This document shows, piece after piece, positions 4,815-44,001 of a DNA stretch of 48,297 bases. The notes beneath the pieces were generated by a model, which was not told the DNA's origin, ran no database searches, and saw only the letters and a program-made list of their open reading frames with translations. A program made the translations under genes and the position numbers. Each line of letters begins with the position of its first letter. Within the stretch, counting starts at the first letter, position 1. Source of the stretch: a virus; the IMG/VR virus record IMGVR_UViG_3300049825_000606, positions 1-48,297 of that record; one strand, given 5' to 3'.

Positions 4815-5753
4815 TCAGCATGGACGCTGGTTCCAATATAGTATTTCACTCTTTATCTTCTTTTTATCACCGGAATTATTTAGCCCAGAAGCCTTGTCAA
4901 TTTCGTACACCTGCTTAAACCTTGCGTCGCTAATATTGTATTCTGAAATATAAACCGGAAAATTACGCGACGATGCCCAGTCGAAAAACTCTTTATGATT
5001 GAAACTGTTTTGGTAATCCGCTGTTTCAGCGTAGGGGATATCGCAATACACAACTGAGTTAGGTAGGATCTCGACCTTGCGGTAATCGCCTGAATAAAAC
5101 GACAACCGCTCCAACTGCTCCAACCGCTCCAACCGCTCCAACTGCTCCAACCGCTCCAACTGCTCCAACCGCTTCAACTGCTCCAACTGCTGCAACTGCT
5201 CCAACTGCTGCAACTGCTCCAAGTCTCCTCTCTTCATCCCTTTAGACATAAAGATAACTTTTTGCCGAAAAAATAACCTTTTTTGTTTTATGGTTCTTAC
5301 AAAAGATGGCCATCTGTCAAAACCTAAAATGCTAATAGCGAAAGCGTCAAATTCGCCGAATATCACGGCCTGATGCGCTGATCTTTTTTCCGCTTCTATG
5401 TCCTTGCCAAACAGATAGTTTTTTTGATTATTCCCAAAACTCCATAGGCACCGAATATAAGCATCGCTGTCTTTTTTTAAATTGAATTCATCACGCGATA
5501 CCCACGGCGGCTGAAATACATCGCAATTAAATTCGCCTTTGATAGCACGCTTGACGAGATCGACTACATCGCTTTTGATTTCATTGTAATGAAAATGCGA
5601 ATACTTATGACTAAACCGCTTGAGCACGCAGTGCGTCATCGAAAAGCCGCCGCCGAATAGATCATAAAAGTGCGTGGCCTTCGGTAGCATCATGCAAATG
5701 CTAGGCGCGATCTTAGCCTTGGAGCCCATGTACGGAACGCCAAATTCACTCAT
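4815..5753 (-). CDS. D12-class DNA adenine methyltransferase with internal LEQ repeat
   Basis: 312 residues. PYMGSK (7-12) and DLFGGGF (31-37) are the SAM-binding hallmarks of Dam/D12 N6-adenine methyltransferases. CDIPY (237-241) sits where the catalytic DPPY belongs, with I replacing the first P. Between them, residues about 178-217 are a tandem three-residue repeat, L-E-Q or L-E-R, predicted as an amphipathic helix or coiled coil. This class of repeat-containing methylase occurs in other phages. Possible roles are protecting phage DNA from restriction or marking it for packaging. GATC is frequent in the window rather than avoided, so GATC is a plausible target, but specificity is not shown. 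Coupled to the ParB-like gene by an ATGA overlap. Confidence 0.85.
   Translation of the reverse strand: MSEFGVPYMGSKAKIAPSICMMLPKATHFYDLFGGGFSMTHCVLKRFSHKYSHFHYNEIKSDVVDLVKRAIKGEFNCDVFQPPWVSRDEFNLKKDSDAYIRCLWSFGNNQKNYLFGKDIEAEKRSAHQAVIFGEFDAFAISILGFDRWPSFVRTIKQKRLFFRQKVIFMSKGMKRGDLEQLQQLEQLQQLEQLKRLEQLERLEQLERLERLEQLERLSFYSGDYRKVEILPNSVVYCDIPYAETADYQNSFNHKEFFDWASSRNFPVYISEYNISDARFKQVYEIDKASGLNNSGDKKKIKSEILYWNQRPC
5103..5222 (-). repeat. Nine-base tandem repeat inside the methyltransferase
   Basis: About 13 units of nine bases (coding strand TTGGAGCAG or TTGGAGCGG, with TTGCAGCAG variants near the 5' end). Each unit keeps frame, so copy-number changes would lengthen or shorten the protein without breaking it. 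Third-codon differences (CAG, CGG, AAG) show the array is not freshly expanded but partly diverged. Confidence 0.9.
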
Positions 5754-6295: not shown

Positions 6296-6904
6296 ATGGC
6301 CAAAAAAAAGGTAAAGGAAGTCACGCGAGGAAGCAAGGAAGTAAAACGAATTCGAGATCTTGATAAGGTTCAAGAGACAATAAATTCTGATGAAATAAAA
6401 AATGCTGGTGATCTAGTTCCTGAAGGTCGTTATCAAAAAATATTATATGATTGGGATCATGAAGACGTTCGCAAAATAACTCAAATGGCAAAGATAGGCT
6501 TAAAATATGCACAGATCGCAGCGATTATGGACTGCACTCTGTCTATCTTTGATCGAAGAATAGCTGATGACAAAATGAACTTTGAAGCTGGTATTAAAGA
6601 GGAATATAACCTCTATGCCATTCTGGAAAAAGCTAGAGCGAGTGGTGAGGGGGCTATAGCCCGCACCTGCTATGAGGTTGCGCTCGAACAGAAACATCCG
6701 ACGATGTTAATTTGGTTATCGAAAGTTAGACTCGGATGGAGAGAGACTGTCGATGTAGCTGCTAAGGTCGAGCACACCATTGTATATGAAACACAGCTTG
6801 TAAACGGTGTTATCAATCAAGATATGAAGCAATTAAATTCAGATAAAATCATCGATGCAATGATCGAAGAAGTAGTTGAGGAAGCATGTCCGAAACAAGA
6901 GTAA
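6296..6904 (+). CDS. terS: Terminase small subunit
   Basis: 202 residues. A basic N-terminus is followed by a predicted HTH (MAKIGLKYAQIAAIMDCTLS, about residues 63-82), then a helical oligomerisation region and a C-terminal motif typical of TerS proteins (HPTMLIWLSKVRLGW, about 138-152). TerS recognises phage DNA and feeds it to the large subunit. The gene overlaps TerL by 19 bases. The start sits in AAATGTATGGCCAAA, a 15-base sequence repeated exactly before the portal gene. Confidence 0.85.
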   Translation: MAKKKVKEVTRGSKEVKRIRDLDKVQETINSDEIKNAGDLVPEGRYQKILYDWDHEDVRKITQMAKIGLKYAQIAAIMDCTLSIFDRRIADDKMNFEAGIKEEYNLYAILEKARASGEGAIARTCYEVALEQKHPTMLIWLSKVRLGWRETVDVAAKVEHTIVYETQLVNGVINQDMKQLNSDKIIDAMIEEVVEEACPKQE

Positions 6905-9198
6905 GGCTGAAAGTCGCGACTGAACCGCATTCCACGAAGCAAGCCTTGATCATGAATTCATTTTTTATTCCTGGCTTAATGGAGATGTGGGTAGCTTGCG
7001 GGAGCAAGTTCGGGAAGGCGCAGCACATTGATACACCAATACCAACACCAGATGGATGGCGGGTTTTAGACAATATTAAAGAAGGTGATTTTGTATTTAA
7101 TGAACATGGGAAACCAACATTAGTCGAGTATGTTACCGACACGATGTATGATCATAAATGTTATGAAGTTGTTTTTTCTGACGGAAATAAGGTTATTGCA
7201 GACGCAGAGCACCTTTGGGTGACCACGACGCATAACGCTAGAAAAAATATTGCTCGCTGCAAGATAACAAAATATAAGCCTGAAACAGTTACCACTGAGT
7301 ATATTAAAGATACACTATTGCATGACCAAGGTGATGGAAGACTTAGGCCTAATCACTCAATCCCCTGCGTCACTGCACCGCTTCAATTCAAAGAAAAAAA
7401 TCTAACGGTTAATCCTTACGTTCTGGGATTTTGGCTCGGTGACGGCAGCACATCCAGTGGTCGAATGACTTCAGGAGATAAGAGCATGGCGGACTCTATT
7501 AGTGCTGAAGGATATCCAGCCAAGTTTACCGAATGCGGTAAAAAGCAAACCATTAATGTTATCGGTCTTATGAAAGATTTAAGATCAATTGGGGTTTTAA
7601 ATAATAAGCATGTACCAAATAACTATCTGACAGCCTCTCCAGATCAAAGAATGGCTTTATTACAAGGGTTAATGGACTCAGACGGGACGATAGATTCTAG
7701 AGGTCATTGTTGCTTTGATAACACTAATTTAAGTTTAGCCGATGCTGTTGAATCATTAGCAGTATCATTTGGTATAAAGGTAAATAGAGCTTCTAGAATA
7801 GGCAAGCTTTATGGAGTTGAGAAAAAACTCTGCTACAGAGTGTGGTTTACTACTGATCTTCCTGTTTTTAGATTAAAGCGCCAACTCGAAAGGTTGAGGC
7901 CTATAGCAGAAAAAGCAAAGAGGCGTTATATAGTAGAGGTCAATGAAGTAGCAAGCGTTCCTGTTAAATGCATAAGAGTTTCTAATCCAACTCATTTATT
8001 TTTATGTGGAAAAGGCTGCATCCCAACTCACAACACTTTCGCTGCAAGCACGGCGTTAAGTTTGGCATTCCCCATTAGAAAACAAGCCCTATTCAGATGG
8101 ATAGCACCCGTATATTCTCAGAGCAAAATCGGCTTCAAGTATGTAAAGAGAATCTTGCCGCCTGAACCGCATGTAAGGGCGAACGAGTCTCATCTGTCTT
8201 TATATATGCCTTCAAATGATTCGCAGATACAATTTTTCCACGGACAAAACGCCGAAAGTATTGAGGGTGAAGCAACGGCAGGGAACATACTAGACGAAGC
8301 CGCGAAGATGAAAGAAGAGGTTTATAGCTCGGTTAAAACCACGACTACGGTAACGAAAGGCATCATCGTCGGGATCTCGACACCTAAAGGGAAAAATAAT
8401 TGGTTCTATCGAAAGTGCATGGAAGCCAAGGAAGAAATGATCCGTGCTCGATTCGAGAATAGACGGCCAACTAAGATATATATTCACGCTCCATCGTGGA
8501 CTAATCCTTCTGTCTCTATGGATATTATCAACGATGCGAAGCGCACTATGCCTGAGCGATTATGGAAGCAATATTACTGCGCAGACTTCCTTGCTGACGG
8601 CTCTTGCTTCTCGAACCTTGCGGCCTGCTATGATAGCGAGTACCTAGACTTCGATGAGCAGTTTCTATGGACTGCTGAAGGCTCGGAGAAAGAGCCCGCA
8701 GTCATCGGCGTTGACTGGGCACGCACAGTGGATTTCACCGTATTCATAGCGGTTAATCCGAAAACTAGGCGGACGATAGGCATATGGCGCATGAGGGGGA
8801 TCAGTTACGTGAACCAAGTCCAACGCATCAAACGGTTCGCCGAAAAATTCGCCTCTTGCGAAACCGTATGGCATGACAAGACTGGAGTTGGTGTTGCTCT
8901 TGACGACATGCTTCACGGTTGTGAACTGCCCTTTAGAGGGATCACGTTCACTAATGCATCGAAAAATGAAATGATGGTCAAGCTTATGGTGTCCTTCGAG
9001 GAAGGCTCCTTTAAGATTCCTCAGATCAATTCATTGGTCGATGAGCTCAACGACATTGAGGTCAAGACAACTTTGACAGGACTTCCCACCTACTCCGCTC
9101 CCGACGGCTCTCACGACGACATTGTCATGTCATTAGCATTAGCTCACTCAGCAATGTTGCAGCATTCAGAGCGAGACTATGGCATCATAGAATTCTAA
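6886..9198 (+). CDS. terL: Terminase large subunit interrupted by an intein
   Basis: 770 residues encoding packaging ATPase and nuclease. N-extein is residues 1-44, ending in CGSKFGK; the intein is 45-383; the C-extein begins TFAAS, so splicing restores the Walker A motif CGSKFGKT. Downstream are Walker B with catalytic glutamate (ILDEAA), a coupling motif region (GISTPKGKNN), and nuclease acidic clusters GVDWARTVD and SHDDIVMSLALA. The spliced protein would be 431 residues, normal for TerL. The motor docks on the portal, drives DNA into the prohead and cuts concatemers. Without splicing the P-loop is broken, so packaging depends on the intein. Confidence 0.93.
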   Translation: MSETRVRLKVATEPHSTKQALIMNSFFIPGLMEMWVACGSKFGKAQHIDTPIPTPDGWRVLDNIKEGDFVFNEHGKPTLVEYVTDTMYDHKCYEVVFSDGNKVIADAEHLWVTTTHNARKNIARCKITKYKPETVTTEYIKDTLLHDQGDGRLRPNHSIPCVTAPLQFKEKNLTVNPYVLGFWLGDGSTSSGRMTSGDKSMADSISAEGYPAKFTECGKKQTINVIGLMKDLRSIGVLNNKHVPNNYLTASPDQRMALLQGLMDSDGTIDSRGHCCFDNTNLSLADAVESLAVSFGIKVNRASRIGKLYGVEKKLCYRVWFTTDLPVFRLKRQLERLRPIAEKAKRRYIVEVNEVASVPVKCIRVSNPTHLFLCGKGCIPTHNTFAASTALSLAFPIRKQALFRWIAPVYSQSKIGFKYVKRILPPEPHVRANESHLSLYMPSNDSQIQFFHGQNAESIEGEATAGNILDEAAKMKEEVYSSVKTTTTVTKGIIVGISTPKGKNNWFYRKCMEAKEEMIRARFENRRPTKIYIHAPSWTNPSVSMDIINDAKRTMPERLWKQYYCADFLADGSCFSNLAACYDSEYLDFDEQFLWTAEGSEKEPAVIGVDWARTVDFTVFIAVNPKTRRTIGIWRMRGISYVNQVQRIKRFAEKFASCETVWHDKTGVGVALDDMLHGCELPFRGITFTNASKNEMMVKLMVSFEEGSFKIPQINSLVDELNDIEVKTTLTGLPTYSAPDGSHDDIVMSLALAHSAMLQHSERDYGIIEF
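7018..8034 (+). mobile_element. TerL intein with LAGLIDADG homing endonuclease
   Basis: 339 residues. It begins AQHIDTPIPTPDGW: Ala occupies the usual Cys1 position, aligned on the conserved D-T and T-x-D-G of block A, making it an A1-type intein. A typical block B (ADAEHLWVTT) is present. The C-terminal end is THN followed by Thr, the usual His-Asn plus nucleophile. Two LAGLIDADG helices, LGFWLGDGS and LLQGLMDSDGT, mark a homing endonuclease. Removing 7018-8034 keeps the host frame exactly. The element lacks the AACCG/CGGTT excess of its surroundings, which suggests later arrival. Confidence 0.93.
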
Positions 9199-34495: not shown

Positions 34496-34756
34496 ATGAC
34501 TGGTATTGACGAAACAATGGACTTGATTAATTTCGTTGAGGACATGGCGAAGGTTATCCGTGAAGCGAAAGCTGACGGCAAGCTTGATATGTTCGACGCG
34601 ATCAAGGTTCTTAAGCTTGCTCCTTCGTTCACTGCGGCGATGCGTGGATCAGACAAGATCAAGGAAGAACTAGCCGACCTAACCGGAGAGGAACGCGACA
34701 TGCTTTTAGCGAAACTTAAGGAGGCTATGTTTCTCTTGATTGAGGCGGTAACATGA
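34496..34756 (+). CDS. Helical lysis-region protein, 86 aa
   Basis: ATG at 34496 has GGGG six bases upstream; an in-frame TTG at 34478 is less likely. All-helical (DLINFVEDMAKVIREAKADG, then LADLTGEERDMLLAKLKEAM). I recall similar small helical proteins near phage endolysins, with unknown function. No membrane segment. Overlaps the endolysin by four bases. Confidence 0.55.
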   Translation: MTGIDETMDLINFVEDMAKVIREAKADGKLDMFDAIKVLKLAPSFTAAMRGSDKIKEELADLTGEERDMLLAKLKEAMFLLIEAVT

Positions 34757-35310
34757 AGTCAATCTGGGAAACTGCGGATAAGTTTTGGGAGTTAGACAGG
34801 CTGGGAGTTAATCCCTGGCCTGTTGGTCCTTGCGGGATAACCGTTCACTATACGGCTGACTCCGACCTTGCTCGAGTCAAGCGAGAGATGGACGCGAAAA
34901 AGATCGGTTATCACTTCATCATTGACCGCGACGGTTCGCTGCATCAAACTGCCAGCCTTTCTCATTCGGTTAATCATGCCGGAAAGGCCATGTGGAATGG
35001 TCAATCGCCGAACCGCACTCATCTTGCCATTGCCTTTATTTCGTGGGGATTTTTGACAGATGAATCTAAAGCCTGGAACGGCACTCAGGTTGCTGGAGTT
35101 AAGCGAAGAGGCAAACTATGGGACCCAGCAAGCGAAGCTCAAGAGAACCGTCTTAATAAACTCCTGGGAGAGCTTATTCGCTTCTACGGGATCAGCCCGC
35201 TTAATATCTGTGGACATGACGAGTGTGCCATACCTCAAGGACGCAAGGCTGATCCTGGAGGATCACTCCTAAAGACTATGGGCGATATAAGAAAAAGTTT
35301 TGCATCATGA
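34753..35310 (+). CDS. Endolysin: N-acetylmuramoyl-L-alanine amidase (Amidase_2)
   Basis: 185 residues, one domain. Zinc ligands His32 (VHYT), His155 (CGHDEC) and Asp167 (KADPGG) match the Amidase_2/PGRP family; IGYHFIIDRDGSLHQ and HAGKAMWNG are also typical. It would cut the bond between N-acetylmuramic acid and L-alanine in peptidoglycan. No signal peptide, so it needs a holin to reach the wall. Confidence 0.88.
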   Translation: MKSIWETADKFWELDRLGVNPWPVGPCGITVHYTADSDLARVKREMDAKKIGYHFIIDRDGSLHQTASLSHSVNHAGKAMWNGQSPNRTHLAIAFISWGFLTDESKAWNGTQVAGVKRRGKLWDPASEAQENRLNKLLGELIRFYGISPLNICGHDECAIPQGRKADPGGSLLKTMGDIRKSFAS

Positions 35311-35456: not shown

Positions 35457-35592
35457 AGCTGAGTTATGCCAAGTAAAGATGCAGGCTGAGAAATATATGG
35501 GTGGAAACATAAGCAAGTGGATGAGGGATAGGGCTTCCAAGCCTATGCTTGATATATCAATACGTATGCAGGATGAAATCGATGAAAAATAA
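35386..35592 (+). CDS. Possible ribbon-helix-helix protein, 68 aa
   Basis: I choose ATG 35386 (GAGGG eight bases upstream) over the TTG at 35371. After a charged start, NEKMFVRMNEAELCQVKMQA followed by SKWMRDRA reads as a ribbon-helix-helix: strand, then two helices, as in MobC/Arc-type proteins. Likely a small DNA-binding regulator, perhaps of the envelope genes that follow. Its stop overlaps the YceI-like start. Confidence 0.5.
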   Translation: MPGTMSIEKPEKKRNEKMFVRMNEAELCQVKMQAEKYMGGNISKWMRDRASKPMLDISIRMQDEIDEK

Positions 35593-36088
35593 TTTGATCG
35601 CTCTCTTAATGTTTCTAGTTTCGCAAGTTGGTCTGGCTGAAAATTCGGTGACGTTCGAGGGAGTCGGGAACCCAGGTTTTTTGACGATTGACGGCAAGGG
35701 TGGGAAAGTAGTTGGAGAATTAAATATTAAGGGAGGAAAGTCAAGCGGTACGTTCGAGGTCGATCTTAAAAAGTTCGACACAGGGATCGAGCTCCGCAAT
35801 AAACATATGCTCGAGAAATATCTTGAGGTCGATAAATTCCCTTCTGCTAAACTGATTCTCGATCCGGTTATCATGCCGAAAGGCGGCTATTTTAACTGGA
35901 AAGGCAATCTAAGCATGCACGGTGTAATCAAGCCAGTGAACGGCGTTGCGTTCCTCGAAGGGAAGCAGATTGAAGCTAAATTTAATATTACGACGACCGA
36001 CTTTAAGATTAAGAAGGCCATTTATTTGGGAGTCGGGCTTGATGAAAAAATTTCTATTGTTGTTCATATCGATATGCCTCCAACCTAG
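35582..36088 (+). CDS. Secreted YceI-like lipocalin-fold protein, 168 aa
   Basis: I take the ATG at 35582 (AGGA eight bases upstream), giving MKNNLIALLMFLVSQVGLA as a Sec signal before ENS. The mature protein matches YceI: FEVDLKKFDTGIELRNKHML, then EKYLEVDKFPSAKL, with the R-x-x-H-M-x-x-K-Y-L-E-V signature. YceI proteins are periplasmic beta-barrels that bind isoprenoids such as quinones, and often sit by cytochrome genes. I do not recall YceI as usual phage cargo. It overlaps the next gene by 47 bases. Confidence 0.78.
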   Translation: MKNNLIALLMFLVSQVGLAENSVTFEGVGNPGFLTIDGKGGKVVGELNIKGGKSSGTFEVDLKKFDTGIELRNKHMLEKYLEVDKFPSAKLILDPVIMPKGGYFNWKGNLSMHGVIKPVNGVAFLEGKQIEAKFNITTTDFKIKKAIYLGVGLDEKISIVVHIDMPPT

Positions 36089-37025
36089 TATCGCTGCAGC
36101 CTTTCCCTCCAATATCCGCCTTGGTTATAATTCTTGCGCCTCATGTCATGTCGATGTAACCGGAGGAAGTCTCTTGACTCCCTACGGTCGCATGGCCTCT
36201 GGTGAGATCATGTCAACGTGGGAAGCACCAGGGGAAACTGGCTTACTTCATGGTTTGATGAGTACGAACGACGCGCTTGATATAGGCGGAGATTTTCAGC
36301 ATGTCTCTCTTGCTGACCGAGAATTCGCGATGCAGCGAGAGGTGCAAGTTGGGCTGAATCTTTGGAGGCAGTTTTTTATAACGGTTAATTCCGGCCTTTA
36401 CGGACCTTACCCGCCTGGACCGGAGATGCGAAAGGCTTACCTGCAAGGAACCGTGTTCGATAATTGGACTTTTAAACTCGGACGGTTTTTCCCTGCTTTC
36501 GGGATTATGAGCAATGAGCACCTGTATGCATACAGGTCAAGGAATTTTAATCAAGGCCGAGAGACTTATAATGCTGAATTAATTTATAGGTCGAAATACT
36601 TCGAGCTTACGGCGGCCAAGATCTTTGGTCATCCTGAAGATTTTCATCAAGGTATCTTAGTTGGCAAAGAGGCTTTTTCCACGCGTCTTAGCATTACACC
36701 AACTAATTCCCTTAACTTCGGTCTTTCTGATTACTTGACCATTGATCCTGAAGGTGTCGTTGAGAATTTCGGAGCGGCGCATCTGCTTTGGGGAATTGAC
36801 AAGAATTTTTGGATCGAGACGCAAGCCGGACTTAAGGACGTTTACTTTCGGCTGGGTGTCGCGCCTGCAAAGGGTTTCCTCGTTCGGCCAACCGTTGAAT
36901 ATATTTACGGTTCGCCCGACGTTCGTAAAGAGCTCAATATTCAATGGCTGCCTAGACCTCATTTTGATTTTCAGTTGACTTGTTCCAAAACGACCTGGAT
37001 TTTCTTATCACATTACTATCTGTGA
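36042..37025 (+). CDS. Exported beta-barrel-like protein with one CxxCH haem motif, 327 aa
   Basis: The true start is the ATG at 36042 (GGGAG upstream), giving signal peptide MKKFLLLFISICLQPSIAAA. Right after cleavage comes YNSCASCHVDVTGG then LLTPYGR, a CxxCH c-type haem motif within a conserved G-Y-x-S-C-x-x-C-H-x-x-x-x-G-G-x-L-x-x-Y-G-R pattern. The rest, about 270 residues, alternates aromatic strands (NLWRQFFITVNSGLYGP; NAELIYRSKYFELTAAKIFG) like an outer-membrane barrel. It probably belongs to host-derived porin-cytochrome-like proteins. Location: outer membrane, inferred. Confidence 0.7.
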   Translation: MKKFLLLFISICLQPSIAAAFPSNIRLGYNSCASCHVDVTGGSLLTPYGRMASGEIMSTWEAPGETGLLHGLMSTNDALDIGGDFQHVSLADREFAMQREVQVGLNLWRQFFITVNSGLYGPYPPGPEMRKAYLQGTVFDNWTFKLGRFFPAFGIMSNEHLYAYRSRNFNQGRETYNAELIYRSKYFELTAAKIFGHPEDFHQGILVGKEAFSTRLSITPTNSLNFGLSDYLTIDPEGVVENFGAAHLLWGIDKNFWIETQAGLKDVYFRLGVAPAKGFLVRPTVEYIYGSPDVRKELNIQWLPRPHFDFQLTCSKTTWIFLSHYYL

Positions 37026-37290
37026 CCAATCTGATCGGCTCTTCACCGTTAAGAATTCTTATATGAGCCTCTAATTCGTTATGATCGATTCGGTGGGTGA
37101 TCCATGGTAAAATAGTGAGCGGGTAGATCAAGGAACCTTTCCATAAACGGTGGCTCTTAATCAAAGAGCTTCCATTTATTTTTATGCTTCTAAAGAAGAA
37201 AAATTCTGTAAAAACAATTTCATACGTTTCCATTTCGATATTGTATGGCGTGAAATCATGATGCACGATTAAGCTGTTAATTATCTTCAT
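36952..37290 (-). CDS. Hypothetical protein, 112 aa, convergent
   Basis: ATG at 37290 has GGAG five bases upstream (ATGGAGCCTTATG context). A small alpha/beta protein rich in I, F, H and basic residues (YEIVFTEFFFFRSIKINGSS; THRIDHNELEAHIRILNGEE). Its 3' end overlaps the barrel gene by 74 bases, which weakens the case slightly, but the ribosome site is good. Family unknown. Confidence 0.5.
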   Translation of the reverse strand: MKIINSLIVHHDFTPYNIEMETYEIVFTEFFFFRSIKINGSSLIKSHRLWKGSLIYPLTILPWITHRIDHNELEAHIRILNGEEPIRLVTDSNVIRKSRSFWNKSTENQNEV

Positions 37291-37308
37291 AAGGCTCCAT
37301 TAGTAAAT

Positions 37309-37331
37309 GAGAGGTTCAAGTCGAACCTCTC
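37309..37331. other. Perfect nine-base inverted repeat
   Basis: GAGAGGTTC and GAACCTCTC around a five-base AAGTC loop. No T-tract on either side, so not a usual terminator. It lies between the leftward gene start and the extended -10 promoter at 37380-37388, where it could be an operator controlling one or both directions. Confidence 0.5.
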
Positions 37332-37379
37332 GTTAAAACAGGAGTACACTATTGGAGTATCCTAATCATAACCGTTTCA

Positions 37380-37388
37380 TGCTATAAT
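37380..37388 (+). promoter_or_regulatory. Extended -10 promoter for the lipoprotein pair
   Basis: TGCTATAAT is an ideal extended -10 element, 25 bases before the ATG at 37414. The -35 region is poor, which extended -10 promoters tolerate. With the inverted repeat at 37309-37331 just upstream it suggests regulated, independent expression of the two haem-motif lipoproteins. Confidence 0.6.
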
Positions 37389-37413
37389 TCACATTGCAAA
37401 TAAGGGGACACTA

Positions 37414-38880
37414 ATGCACTTTCTTTTTATTTTACTTTTTATTTTGTCGGCTTGCACCAACGGAAAAAATATCACGACTAATAAGCGTGAACCGCCTCCT
37501 GGAATTCCGAACGAACTGCCCAAGGAAACCGCGCCACCTGTCAAGCAGGGCGTGCCTGGGTTCATTCGTTTCGACCAGCAAGAAGAGGCCATGAACCTAG
37601 CGGTCAACAGTCTTTCCGAATTCGACCGCTTGCAGACACGGTTCATTATTTGCTCGGATCAATATAATGCCGATGGGATCGAGGCGACGCGCGTTTGTAA
37701 GGACGGCGTAACGAAGGCTTTAAATTCTATTTCGCAAGAAATAAGCCTTGACGAACCGAAAGCAATTGGTCCTGCGAATTCGATCATGCAAGTCAACCTG
37801 AAAGATTTTGGCCTCACGCCTGCTAAGTGGAGACTGATCGAGCAGGCTGACCCGTTCAAGTTTACCTCTCAAACCGTTCGAGGTCGCACGCTGCAGTTTT
37901 TAACTCAGACTCAACGACCTTTTATTAACGGTTCAGTCTTTGCGGAAACCGCACTGGTCAAGGCTTACTACGGCCTCGAAGAAGTGCCGAACAGCCTTTT
38001 CGCGTTGCAGATCAAGCTTGGAATTAATATTCAGGACGACTTTGATAACCGCGATTCGGACTTGATCTTGTTCGGAATGAACGAATCGGTGATCGCCGCT
38101 AATCGTCAATTCCGTTTGATCACTCGAGCGAAAGGAACCTTCGGTGCTCTATGGTGTACGTCTGATACGAATGATCAGCAAATTGCACCGATCAACGTCA
38201 ACGGCCAATTGATCAATCAGAAAAACTTGCTCGAAGCGCCGTTTCCACGGGAAACAAGATCTTTGAAAGCGGCTATAGGCGATGCAGGAGAATGTATTTA
38301 TGTTCGGCCTAATGGAATGCTCGGTTATGCGTTGTTTAATGCTGCAGGTGTTCGTCAAGATTTCGCTCCAACGAATATCGTTCAGGACACTGCCTCGGCT
38401 TCCCGTGGTTTATCGAGCACGATCACCAATGCTCGATCATGCTTTCGATGCCACGCGACTGGCTTTATACCGATCAAGGATAGCCTCGGTCAGCATATAG
38501 CAACGAACACCAGCTTTAATGCGGCGGATAAACAACTAGGCCGAATATTCTTTAAGTCTGCAGGTGTTGGTAGTGCTTTCTTTAAGAAGGATAATCAAGA
38601 TTATTCTGATGCTCTCGACAAGCTAAAGGTAAGCGATCCAACCGAAGATGCAGTCAACGGCTTAACCGATAAGATTCGCCTCGAGCAAGACGCTCGGCAG
38701 GTCGCGGGACTTCTCGGGATAACCGAGGAAGAATTAAAGGTCGGGCTTCGCTCGAGCACCAATGCCTCGGCGATCCTCGGAGCTCTCCTGCAACCAAGCG
38801 GCAAGGTCAACTCACAGGCTTTAATTGACGGTTTGCCGATCTTAATTCAGGAGATGAACCTTTTTAAGGATGACATATGA
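37414..38880 (+). CDS. Lipoprotein with CxxCH haem motif, 488 aa
   Basis: Signal II: MHFLFILLFILSAC, with lipobox LSAC making Cys14 the lipidated residue. The Pro-rich stretch that follows is a tether. Near residues 340-350, NARSCFRCHATGF gives a CxxCH haem-attachment motif, preceded by YALFNAAGVRQDFAPTNIV, a context I associate with single-haem cytochrome domains in several bacterial groups. N- and C-terminal portions are helical. It should face the periplasm or the cell surface. Coupled to the next gene by ATGA. Electron carrier or haem-binding role inferred, not shown. Confidence 0.65.
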   Translation: MHFLFILLFILSACTNGKNITTNKREPPPGIPNELPKETAPPVKQGVPGFIRFDQQEEAMNLAVNSLSEFDRLQTRFIICSDQYNADGIEATRVCKDGVTKALNSISQEISLDEPKAIGPANSIMQVNLKDFGLTPAKWRLIEQADPFKFTSQTVRGRTLQFLTQTQRPFINGSVFAETALVKAYYGLEEVPNSLFALQIKLGINIQDDFDNRDSDLILFGMNESVIAANRQFRLITRAKGTFGALWCTSDTNDQQIAPINVNGQLINQKNLLEAPFPRETRSLKAAIGDAGECIYVRPNGMLGYALFNAAGVRQDFAPTNIVQDTASASRGLSSTITNARSCFRCHATGFIPIKDSLGQHIATNTSFNAADKQLGRIFFKSAGVGSAFFKKDNQDYSDALDKLKVSDPTEDAVNGLTDKIRLEQDARQVAGLLGITEEELKVGLRSSTNASAILGALLQPSGKVNSQALIDGLPILIQEMNLFKDDI

Positions 38881-39197
38881 AAAAATTAACGGTTCTTCTT
38901 TTTTTGTTTGCTTGTGGCCGCGCTCCCAGCAATGATCCTACTCCGGTTCCTGTTCCTAAAAAAACAGGCGGTGGAGAGCTGACTTTTAACTCTGATGTGA
39001 AACCCTTGCTGACGTCGTATTGTGCTGAATGCCACTCAGATGCGACTTTTATTTCTAATGAGAATTCGTTCTTGAATTCTAAGGCACCGACTCGGATTGC
39101 GAATAAGTCGATGCCTCAGCGTCAGAGTAAAAATTTTGCTAAATGGTCTGATGCACAGCGGGCGATTGTTGCTGCATTTGTTGAGGAAAGCCGATAG
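38877..39197 (+). CDS. Cytochrome c-like lipoprotein, 106 aa
   Basis: Signal MKKLTVLLFLFAC with lipobox LFAC, then a Pro/Val linker. The domain FNSDVKPLLTSYCAECHSDA has the V-x-P-L-L-x-x-x-C-x-x-C-H pattern of small cytochrome c domains, with C-x-x-C-H as C-A-E-C-H. Met residues downstream (KSMPQRQSKNF) could supply the sixth haem ligand: SMP is a common ligand context. C-terminus DAQRAIVAAFVEES is the expected final helix. Its last 59 bases overlap the convergent exonuclease gene. Confidence 0.78.
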   Translation: MKKLTVLLFLFACGRAPSNDPTPVPVPKKTGGGELTFNSDVKPLLTSYCAECHSDATFISNENSFLNSKAPTRIANKSMPQRQSKNFAKWSDAQRAIVAAFVEESR

Positions 39198-39936
39198 TAA
39201 TAGATCGTGAAATCCCATTTACGAGGAAACCGCTGCATCTGATGCGGCGGTTTTCTAATTCATGAACCGCTATCATTTGATTTAAAAGATATTCCGCGTG
39301 CTCATCATTCACTAAGCTTGCCGAATGCCAAGCCTCAAGATCTAATCGAAGCTGCTTACTGCGAATCGACGTCCAGTCGCGCAGGACTAATTCAGGCGGC
39401 GTATCGGTTTGTACCATTTCCCAGAAAGCCATGGCCTTTAGAAAATAATCCTTGAACCACTCGCCGTTTAATTTAACCTGAATGCAAATACCTCGCTCGC
39501 CGTCAAAGCTATAATAGTCAGCTCTTTCGGCGTTCGCGACGAAGATTTGGTGCTGAAGCTGCGGATAATATTTCTCGGGCACTTTCCCTTCGAGAGCTAG
39601 TTCATGGTCGACCTTGCCAGGACATTTAATTTCTAAGACCACTCGCTCGGCAGCGTTCCAACCGTCAAGCGATGCTCTCATCCAGGGGAACTGGGGATGA
39701 ACCGCTAAGGTAGCAGGCATCTCTCGCTCGCTCATGAGCTCGTAGTTCGCTCGTGCCTTGGGTTCTAGTTCATGCCCGCGACGTGTAGCGAAGTTCCCAC
39801 CGAATCCTGTCGATCGCCCAGTCTTTACTTGCCATAATTTATATGGGGTAGAATAAGGTGAGTCACCATTGATCACTGGAGCGTCACTTGAGCCTAGTCC
39901 GTTTTTTCTGAATTCCTTCCAATCTGTCTCTTGCAC
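39139..39936 (-). CDS. YqaJ/lambda-type alkaline exonuclease
   Basis: 265 residues, GTG start at 39936 with AAAGGA upstream. The PD-(D/E)XK core shows as GLGSSDAPVINGDSPYSTPY, GHELEPKAR, catalytic RASLDGW (Asp91), VLEIKCPG (Glu102, Lys104) and YYPQLQHQ. This family resects double-strand ends during phage recombination. It is the last gene of the leftward operon and pairs functionally with the Sak4-like ATPase and SSB-like protein across the divergent promoter. Confidence 0.85.
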   Translation of the reverse strand: MQETDWKEFRKNGLGSSDAPVINGDSPYSTPYKLWQVKTGRSTGFGGNFATRRGHELEPKARANYELMSEREMPATLAVHPQFPWMRASLDGWNAAERVVLEIKCPGKVDHELALEGKVPEKYYPQLQHQIFVANAERADYYSFDGERGICIQVKLNGEWFKDYFLKAMAFWEMVQTDTPPELVLRDWTSIRSKQLRLDLEAWHSASLVNDEHAEYLLNQMIAVHELENRRIRCSGFLVNGISRSITIGFPQQMQQQSPAVHQTI

Positions 39937-40456: not shown

Positions 40457-40634
40457 CTCGGAGCTCCCCACGGTTAAATGAAATTGATTGAACGCTCTCA
40501 GGTATCTCTATTCGTTTGCTATCGAGCAATATATCGTCAAGAAACCGACGATTTTTCATCGTTTGAAACGCTGCAGGCTTAGCTAATTTCTCGATCATTT
40601 TAAGCTGTTCTTCGCTTACTAGATAATATTTCAT
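40440..40634 (-). CDS. Hypothetical protein, 64 aa
   Basis: Coupled to the receiver gene by an ATGA overlap at 40631-40634. The chain (MKYYLVSEEQLKMIEKLAKP, then SKRIEIPESVQSISFNRGEL) looks like a helix followed by a strand pair. Not recognised. It could partner the receiver, since the two must be made together, but that is inference. Confidence 0.5.
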   Translation of the reverse strand: MKYYLVSEEQLKMIEKLAKPAAFQTMKNRRFLDDILLDSKRIEIPESVQSISFNRGELRVEHKI

Positions 40635-40966
40635 AGACCTATTGCCTTTAGTTTAAGATCAAGAGAAGCTTCATTTAACGGTTTTTTTAGCACCGTGGGA
40701 TCGTTTAACCGATTAAGAGACATCAGGATAAAGGGCACGTGCTTAAATTGTGAACCCTTTAGCCACTCGCGCAACTCGTCGCCGTCCATATCAGGCATAT
40801 GCAGATCGCTCACTATGAGCGAAAGACTAGTCGGATCGACTAAGCTTAATGCTATAGTGGCCTCTTTTCCATTCATGCAAGGGATGACCTCAAACCCACG
40901 CTTGACAAGCATTCCACGCAAAATAGTGCGGTTAATCATACAGTCTTCAGCGATTAATGCTTTCAT
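40631..40966 (-). CDS. Stand-alone CheY-like response regulator receiver
   Basis: 111 residues, one receiver domain and nothing else. Key residues are present: acidic pair Glu7-Asp8, phosphoacceptor Asp54 in VSDLHMPDMDG, Ser83 in place of Thr/Ser, and Lys94/95 before Pro96 in the KKP motif. So it should be phosphorylatable. With no output domain it may act by protein-protein contact, like CheY, or titrate host phosphoryl groups. It is the first gene of the leftward operon and has a strong promoter. Phage-borne receivers are rare in my knowledge. Confidence 0.82.
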   Translation of the reverse strand: MKALIAEDCMINRTILRGMLVKRGFEVIPCMNGKEATIALSLVDPTSLSLIVSDLHMPDMDGDELREWLKGSQFKHVPFILMSLNRLNDPTVLKKPLNEASLDLKLKAIGL

Positions 40967-42697: not shown

Positions 42698-42883
42698 ATG
42701 CCCTATCTATTGCTATCGCTTTGGATGATCGCCTATCTAATTTTCATGCTAGGAAAATATATGGGTGAGCGTCATATGATTAAACATGTAATCGCGTATT
42801 CATGTGAGCAGATGGAAGATAGAAAATCATATGAGATGTGCGTGTTGACCGTTGAGCAGAATTTTAAAAAAGAGAAGAAATGA
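42698..42883 (+). CDS. Small membrane protein, 61 aa
   Basis: ATG at 42698 with AGGATG upstream. N-terminal membrane helix (LLLSLWMIAYLIFMLGKYMG) then a charged helical tail with two cysteines (SCEQMEDRKSYEMC). N-out, C-in orientation by charge. The end overlaps the helicase start. Role unknown. Confidence 0.55.
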   Translation: MPYLLLSLWMIAYLIFMLGKYMGERHMIKHVIAYSCEQMEDRKSYEMCVLTVEQNFKKEKK

Positions 42884-44001
42884 AACTTCGTCCTTACCAA
42901 GAAAAAGCACTAGATGAAATAAGAGCTCATTACGGGAACGGTGTAAAGAAGGTCTTATTAAAATTGGCTACCGGAGGTGGTAAGACACTCTGTTTCTGCA
43001 CCATATTGAAATCGGTTCACGCCAAGGGCTTGAAGGGTATTATGGTCGTCAGAGGCAAGGCTTTAGTTGACCAAGCCTCAGATCGTCTTAGCCGTGAGAA
43101 TGTCCCTCATGGCGTACATATGGCGAATCATTGGCGCAGGATGCCCGATGAACCGATTCAAGTTTGTTCGGTCGATACTCTCTTTCGTCGCAAGATCGTT
43201 CCTAAAGCGCATCTGGTGGTGGTTGATGAGTGCTTCCCACCTGATGTAGAAATTTTGACAAATAAAGGTTTTAAAAGATTCGATGCATTAGATAAGTCTG
43301 AATTAATAGCTCAAGTAAACCAGAATAATATGAAAATGGATTTCGCAAAACCTACACGCTGGATTGCTAATGAAGTTGAAGATATAAATATGTTGAATCT
43401 TAGTAGTAATAAGAAAATAGATATATCTATGACTGAAAATCATGAAATCCTATATGAAGACCAAGGAATTACAAAAAAGCAAACAGCTAAAAATTTTATA
43501 TTTGGAACCAAAAATATTTGGTCATCTGTGATGGCTACAGGAGAAGATACGGAATTAACAAATTATGAAAAACTGATGATCATGTATCAGGCCGACGGTA
43601 ATAATCATTGTATTGGTAAAATGTATTTTACTTTTTCTAAAGAAAGAAAAATTAAAGATTTTGAGATACTCATGAAAAACGGGAAATTTCAATATAAAGA
43701 AATCTCAGGTAAAGAAGCAAATAGAAATAGAAATAAGAAAAGAAGGTTTTCTGTTTGTCATATAGGCAATAAGTCTAAATTCATAGGAGACCATATAAAG
43801 CTAGATAATTTGTCTGAAAATAAATGCAAAAAAATTATCGACTATATGGTGAAGTGGGATGGGTCTATAATTTCGGAAAATGTTTTTTATTACTCTTCAG
43901 TTATTAAGGAGAATACAGATTTTTATGCTGCTATTGCAGTAATGGCTGGATATCATACTAATCAAGTTGTTCAAATAGACGGAAGAAAAGATTCATTTTA
44001 A
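42880..44001 (+). CDS. DEAH-type helicase, N-part plus intein (frame ends early)
   Basis: Residues 1-117 are the helicase start: Walker A ATGGGKT (30-36), motif Ia MVVRGKALVDQASDRL, and VVVDE, the first half of the DECH box. At Cys118 an intein begins (CFPPDVEILT) and runs to the stop at 43999-44001. The frame breaks in TTTTAA: removing one T, or a +1 slip, would continue into the rest of the intein and the second helicase half. As written it would give an inactive fragment. Sequence error, decay or programmed slippage are all possible. Confidence 0.75.
   Translation: MKLRPYQEKALDEIRAHYGNGVKKVLLKLATGGGKTLCFCTILKSVHAKGLKGIMVVRGKALVDQASDRLSRENVPHGVHMANHWRRMPDEPIQVCSVDTLFRRKIVPKAHLVVVDECFPPDVEILTNKGFKRFDALDKSELIAQVNQNNMKMDFAKPTRWIANEVEDINMLNLSSNKKIDISMTENHEILYEDQGITKKQTAKNFIFGTKNIWSSVMATGEDTELTNYEKLMIMYQADGNNHCIGKMYFTFSKERKIKDFEILMKNGKFQYKEISGKEANRNRNKKRRFSVCHIGNKSKFIGDHIKLDNLSENKCKKIIDYMVKWDGSIISENVFYYSSVIKENTDFYAAIAVMAGYHTNQVVQIDGRKDSF

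Follow-up and report, generated by a model that had tools for sequence, protein, structure and literature searches.

Described relatives of the cassette

Fused cytochrome-porins of the Cyc2 type are Fe(II) oxidases in which an N-terminal CxxCH motif precedes a porin barrel (PMC8406198). Isoprenoids, ubiquinone-8 among them, are ligands of YceI proteins, and in the BcnA/LcoA system of Burkholderia a YceI lipocalin and a cytochrome b561 together quench lipid peroxyl radicals and so protect the envelope (PMC9113575). In the cytochrome P460/c'-beta superfamily, five strands are followed by a C-terminal CxxCH (PMC11928373). Here we describe a row of four genes for exported proteins, all on the plus strand, at positions 35582-39197 of an IMG/VR virus record of 48,297 bases; this whole stretch is called the window below. 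The genes encode a YceI-family periplasmic lipocalin (35582-36088), a predicted outer-membrane beta-barrel with an N-terminal CxxCH (36042-37025), a lipoprotein of 488 residues, here named BIG (37414-38880), and a predicted small monohaem class-I-like cytochrome c lipoprotein of 106 residues (38877-39197). We attribute a probability of about 0.5 to the reading that they form a phage-carried envelope redox cassette, the core of which was captured from an operon of the Bdellovibrionota type and extended with BIG.

Properties of the four proteins

A preceding sequence-only reading had placed four exported proteins between lysis and recombination genes, and this observation was confirmed, with an amidase gene upstream and genes for an exonuclease and an annealing protein downstream. 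By eye, each of the four proteins opens with a hydrophobic leader of the Sec type. BIG has the lipobox LSAC with Thr at position +2 and the small lipoprotein has LFAC with Gly at this position, so that lipoboxes, leaders and the three CxxCH motifs are all present as that reading had described them. Absence of Asp at +2 of a lipoprotein is the rule for outer-membrane sorting, and the residues of BIG and the small lipoprotein agree with it, so that both would be sorted there.

The three CxxCH motifs are the only ones among the 142 open reading frames (ORFs) of at least 60 amino acids in the window, and all three lie in the cassette; the composition of its four proteins would predict about 0.002. 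They are found at residues 32-36 of the barrel (counted from an in-frame ATG at 36042), at residues 343-347 of BIG and in the small lipoprotein. The motif is retained in 35/35 barrel homologues as well as in all 67 bacterial ORFs matching BIG. The cassette proteins are probably haem-bearing.

The proposed YceI-like lipocalin proved to be a firm assignment by Pfam, with PF04264 at 67.7 bits against a cut-off of 23.7, and the protein also matched YceI structures in the PDB. None of the other three proteins reached a curated family cut-off in Pfam or NCBIfam. Weak matches of the small lipoprotein to PccH and CBB3 stayed under the cut-off (PccH, 19.3 versus 24.4 bits), as did the CBB3 match of its counterpart in a related phage contig, L118 (23.7 versus 27); its putative assignment as a cytochrome draws also on a profile match to a cytochrome encoded in a chromosomal operon, described below.

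Recurrence in phage contigs

The complete four-gene set was found in five phage contigs, the window, L002, L003, L118 and L119, and the gene order is the same in all of them except L119, where the genes form two nearby pairs. L003 and L002 share with the window the four genes, their order and the exonuclease, at identities to the window of about 47-74%; L003 also has the amidase (69%), and L002, which is cut off on the left and starts at YceI, has the annealing protein. L118 and L119 were found by a wider barrel profile and are much more divergent, and across such divergent relatives identity falls to 27-36%, with YceI still scoring 61.5 bits (L118) and 68.8 bits (L119) against PF04264. In L118 (91.6 kb) the order YceI, barrel, BIG, small cytochrome is followed by a directly overlapping amidase gene, the product of which is 46% identical to that of the window, and genes for RecT and exonuclease VIII lie further on, on the opposite strand. 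In L119 (42 kb) BIG and the small cytochrome come first and YceI and the barrel about 2.5 kb on, between tail and RecT/exonuclease genes. In all five contigs the cassette thus has tail or lysis genes on one side and recombination genes on the other, except that L002 is truncated on its left. An independent scan for YceI in phages brought up no other contigs than these, and YceI and the barrel were therefore always found together in phage contigs. Separately, L003 encodes an extra CxxCH cytochrome lipoprotein upstream of its amidase (6679-7074), which brings the number of CxxCH proteins in this contig to four.

The pN/pS ratio (nonsynonymous to synonymous change) was between 0.24 and 0.48 for the four cassette genes, similar to amidase and exonuclease, with synonymous sites near saturation. 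The cassette genes are therefore maintained, and they are under purifying selection. Searches of one collection of named phages with YceI and the barrel returned nothing, and searches of named phages with portal and capsid gave distant matches only, which indicated no host.

A chromosomal counterpart in Bdellovibrionota

The search for chromosomal copies of the barrel began from an Oligoflexia genome, and the 369-genome phylum was taken to be Bdellovibrionota, which are related to predatory bacteria; several of the bacterial genomes searched are metagenome bins. A first genome scan with a close barrel alignment was empty and broader profiles were required, with which the barrel matched 221 of the 369 genomes. 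YceI lies directly upstream of the barrel on the same strand in 26 of the 32 best loci, with a median overlap of 4 bp, and nearby in three more. Within 6 kb flanks of 20 barrel loci, the widely shared families were the barrel (20/20), YceI (17/20) and a CxxCH cytochrome lipoprotein (14/20), and no others; BIG was absent from this distance in the 20 loci. Bdellovibrionota thus carry a compact operon of cytochrome lipoprotein, YceI and CxxCH barrel, for which we found no published name. Its cytochrome lipoprotein matched the small phage cytochrome by profile with 97% probability over 72 columns. The phage cassette and this operon therefore share a homologous barrel, YceI directly before it and a cytochrome c lipoprotein; in the operon, however, the cytochrome precedes YceI, whereas in the phages it comes after the barrel, and the barrel encoded on chromosomes exceeds that of the phages by about 30-50 residues.

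Outside this phylum, the barrel was detected in 32 of 113 Myxococcota genomes, in some adjoining YceI, and weakly in 1 of 119 Planctomycetota genomes. In a maximum-likelihood tree, midpoint-rooted and with long branches within groups, the five phage barrels clustered together (89/88), on the same side as Bdellovibrionota, and Myxococcota fell elsewhere (100/100). The simplest history suggested by these sequences would be a single ancient capture, from a host akin to Bdellovibrionota, after which the genes spread among phages.

BIG and its small-cytochrome partner

BIG has full-length homologues in phages and bacteria. One scan with its haem region gave 13 virus loci. In four contigs (L011-L014), terminase and portal are directly preceded by BIG together with one small cytochrome lipoprotein or two, the portal of L014 being 43% identical to that of the window. 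In jumbo and other large phages (LR756511, 595 kb; L015, 254 kb; L016, L018 and L021), a full-length relative of BIG is followed by a small CxxCH protein. Since jumbo or large and terminase-linked phages share the pair, BIG plus small cytochrome occurs in clearly different phage groups.

A genome scan found bacterial relatives of BIG in Planctomycetota, Poribacteria, Acidobacteria, Myxococcota, Oligoflexia and others. In many of these a class-I cytochrome domain is fused in front of BIG, while in phages the two are encoded by adjacent, separate genes; because bacteria often fuse them, BIG and the small cytochrome of phages would be two parts of one functional unit. Profile A12 matched 260 of 358 Bdellovibrionota genomes, mostly through its cytochrome domain, the BIG module proper occurring in about a dozen among the matches listed. 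BIG is a separate, widespread bacterial family, distinct from the chromosomal three-gene operon. An identity as fatty-acid cis/trans isomerase (two members, E=0.012) was dropped as too weak.

Three further observations concern this family. A BIG protein encoded in L118 (9086-10972) has an N-terminal cytochrome-like stretch in which CxxxCH replaces CxxCH, a form intermediate between fused bacterial and split phage versions. In L007, L015, L016, L018 and L021, the pair lies in a conserved block, in several cases with a papain-like peptidase (a weak match) and a small helical protein upstream. In L013, the single-haem lipoprotein has as its neighbour another phage lipoprotein, of 200 residues (2181-2783), which carries the CxxCH motif twice.

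Structural models and comparison with known systems

The AF2 (AlphaFold 2) model of BIG (pLDDT 90, pTM 0.88) shows a helical N-domain, a five-stranded domain ending in the CxxCH helix and a helical C-domain. The BIG of the window had no match in Pfam, and the model had no significant match in a structural library of viral proteins. A second-look structural alignment placed only chains of cytochrome P460 or c'-beta in the first ten ranks, with Z scores of 4.1-5.6 over 104-117 residues and the next at 3.1, where, by the tool's own warning, a Z below 8 can reflect a common arrangement. The weak resemblance in fold of BIG residues 189-361 to P460/c'-beta, five strands and then a C-terminal CxxCH, may be taken as a lead. 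It is one of fold only; in contrast to that superfamily, BIG has two additional helical domains, is a lipoprotein and shares no detectable sequence relationship with it beyond CxxCH. The sequence-only reading had named CxxCH motifs buried away from any haem site as an outcome that would speak against it; in its model the motif of BIG closes a cytochrome-like domain.

In a Foldseek search with the low-confidence barrel model, all of the matches listed were transmembrane beta-barrels, mostly 16-strand porins and the voltage-dependent anion channel VDAC. With Cyc2 the phage barrel shares one N-terminal CxxCH joined to what is predicted to be a porin-like barrel, and in 23 of 35 barrels a stretch A-x-P-x-x-x-R starts 12 residues ahead of the motif. 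The sequence diagnostic of Cyc2, AXPXFAR[Q/K][T/Y] (PMC8406198), was however found in 0/35 barrels, and PXL likewise in 0/35; the phage barrel further differs in being accompanied by YceI. Membership in Cyc2 was rejected because the diagnostic motif is lacking throughout. By analogy, the barrel may still work like a fused cytochrome-porin, which does not imply Cyc2 identity.

The cassette resembles BcnA/LcoA in that a YceI lipocalin gene stands beside a cytochrome gene, both for envelope proteins. In Burkholderia, however, the partner is a membrane cytochrome b561, none of which is encoded among the four cassette genes, whereas the phages have predicted c-type proteins, either soluble or held by a lipid anchor, and a predicted barrel of the outer membrane. 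Like auxiliary metabolic genes of phages and lambdoid morons, the cassette consists of probably host-derived genes near the lysis region; it differs from these in that the open-access literature searched describes no envelope set of haem proteins that includes such a barrel, in agreement with the earlier statement that no phage module of such content was known.

Proposed origin and function

We propose that the cassette core, comprising the small cytochrome c lipoprotein, YceI and an outer-membrane barrel with a periplasmic haem site, would descend from the Bdellovibrionota-type operon, and that phages would have added BIG from a separate bacterial family of haem proteins. The proteins would be produced together with those of the lysis genes or shortly ahead of them, leave the cytoplasm through Sec and receive haem from the cytochrome c maturation system of the host. 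YceI would ferry an isoprenoid carrier of the quinol type in the periplasm, and the small cytochrome would shuttle electrons between this carrier and two outer-membrane haem sites, the haem domain of BIG and the haem plug of the barrel. This envelope electron route is modelled on BcnA/LcoA, with b561 replaced by outer-membrane c-type proteins. Its likeliest use would be to keep the envelope of the infected cell in redox balance until lysis, either by removal of nitric oxide, peroxides or lipid radicals or as an outlet for surplus electrons; besides these three kinds of substrate, an acceptor at the surface is possible too. The structural neighbours of BIG, which are gas-binding haem proteins, would lend support to a redox cassette. 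A more specific version, which we put forward only tentatively, is an electron conduit of quinone-carrying lipocalin, monohaem shuttle, gas-reactive haem lipoprotein and haem-plugged porin, the two-cytochrome core of which would be kept across lineages, jumbo phages included, for phage yield.

Several points weigh against the redox cassette. The chromosomal counterpart operon is itself unstudied, and an inner-membrane partner that would oxidise quinol is not part of the cassette. The barrel model, built from three sequences only, has low confidence (pLDDT 42.5). The BIG model had no significant Foldseek match, and in HHalign the score of BIG against P460 (PF16694), 30.5, was matched by 9 of 60 CxxCH-keeping shuffles and was gone once CxxCH was masked; since motif-keeping shuffles reach the profile score, it was not taken as evidence of sequence homology between BIG and P460, and the fold resemblance alone was kept. 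A search for prophages by the major capsid in 358 Bdellovibrionota genomes gave no direct host link; it was empty and, without a positive control, uninformative. Haem attachment, quinone binding, electron direction, substrate, timing, host and benefit are inferred in this reading.

The sequence-only reading had offered an electron-transfer or haem-handling route and, alternatively, altered surface receptors. Electron transfer is backed by the chromosomal operon with the same three components, while transport of haem gained no specific support. A role of the CxxCH proteins and YceI in carrying haem, copper or iron across the envelope appears improbable: a CsoR-like regulator near 3 of 20 chromosomal loci and a multicopper-oxidase-like gene adjoining one, both identified by eye, would fit such a role, but these metal-related neighbours are sporadic and Pfam revealed no transporter or haem-uptake family in the cassette. 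Altered receptors likewise found no specific support. That the barrel and the lipoproteins change the surface of the infected cell in the manner of a moron, blocking superinfection or masking a receptor with haem incidental, we consider rather unlikely. Barrels and lipoproteins of the outer membrane, encoded close to lysis and tail genes, do resemble lom and bor of lambda, and the place between tail or lysis and recombination genes is conserved; a plain mask, however, would have no need of haem or of a lipocalin, CxxCH never varies among the barrels and BIG proteins compared, and the same proteins occur in a chromosomal operon with cytochrome and YceI.

The neighbouring amidase, directly upstream in the window and L003 and directly downstream and overlapping in L118, would suit a lysis module that weakens or fuses the outer membrane late in infection in place of spanins, as would the two lipoproteins and a weak match of the BIG leader to an Rz-like spanin (E=0.034). 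We give this explanation little chance, as the spanin match covers residues 3-41 only, which are the lipoprotein leader, three of the four genes are widespread on chromosomes, and jumbo and terminase-linked phages have no recognised endolysin next to the BIG pair. Host chromosomal contamination, an objection the sequence-only reading had itself raised, or a mis-assembled contig is extremely improbable. Outside these phages, the closest relatives of the parts are bacterial, but five separate contigs have phage genes on the flanks of the cassette, L002 and L003 share a closely related block with the window, and the phage copies form one tree group; contamination was rejected on account of the synteny in the five contigs, and the lack of synteny in related phages that had been held out as a second objection was contradicted by the same contigs.

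If the envelope redox cassette is read correctly, phage control would reach the redox chemistry of the envelope, through haem proteins that are exported together with an outer-membrane barrel and that recur under selection; the cassette suggests that these viruses rewire such chemistry in the host cell envelope. To our knowledge, phage auxiliary genes are mostly cytoplasmic or photosynthetic. The cassette would also indicate a phage group that infects predatory or related bacteria, the viruses of which are, as far as we know, hardly known. Two further subjects were uncovered, a widespread and unstudied chromosomal operon of cytochrome, YceI and CxxCH barrel, and, in BIG, a large unnamed family of haem proteins common to bacteria and jumbo phages.

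Flanking genes and other observations in the window

The upstream neighbour of the cassette is an N-acetylmuramoyl-L-alanine amidase (endolysin) gene at 34753-35310 on the plus strand (PF01510, E=6.5e-18; phrog_1794 amidase). Downstream, a convergent gene on the minus strand (39139-39936) encodes a YqaJ/RecE-like exonuclease (PF09588, E=4.8e-27; phrog_434, E=5.4e-39), and the annealing protein encoded beyond the cassette is Sak4-like. Between barrel and BIG lies a small minus-strand ORF (36952-37290) with no assigned function, which had been missed in the sequence-only reading. Its 3' end overlaps that of the barrel gene, its final ~20 codons being antisense to the conserved C-terminus of the barrel. 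It is conserved in L003 and L002, with a pN/pS of about 0.5; it was not seen in L118 or L119, and an NCBIfam search gave no match. Scans for promoters and terminators gave results close to chance level, which were not used.

Elsewhere in the window, a stand-alone response-regulator receiver domain (PF00072) is encoded within the phage recombination region at 40631-40966 on the minus strand. The terminase large subunit (6886-9198) appears, by eye, to carry an intein, and a second intein is suggested by a helicase fragment (42880-44001), residues 114-369 of which match a profile of ribonucleotide reductase. A DNA adenine methyltransferase-like protein, assigned by eye (4815-5753, minus strand), contains a tandem insert of the LEQLERLEQL type, possibly an expandable repeat.

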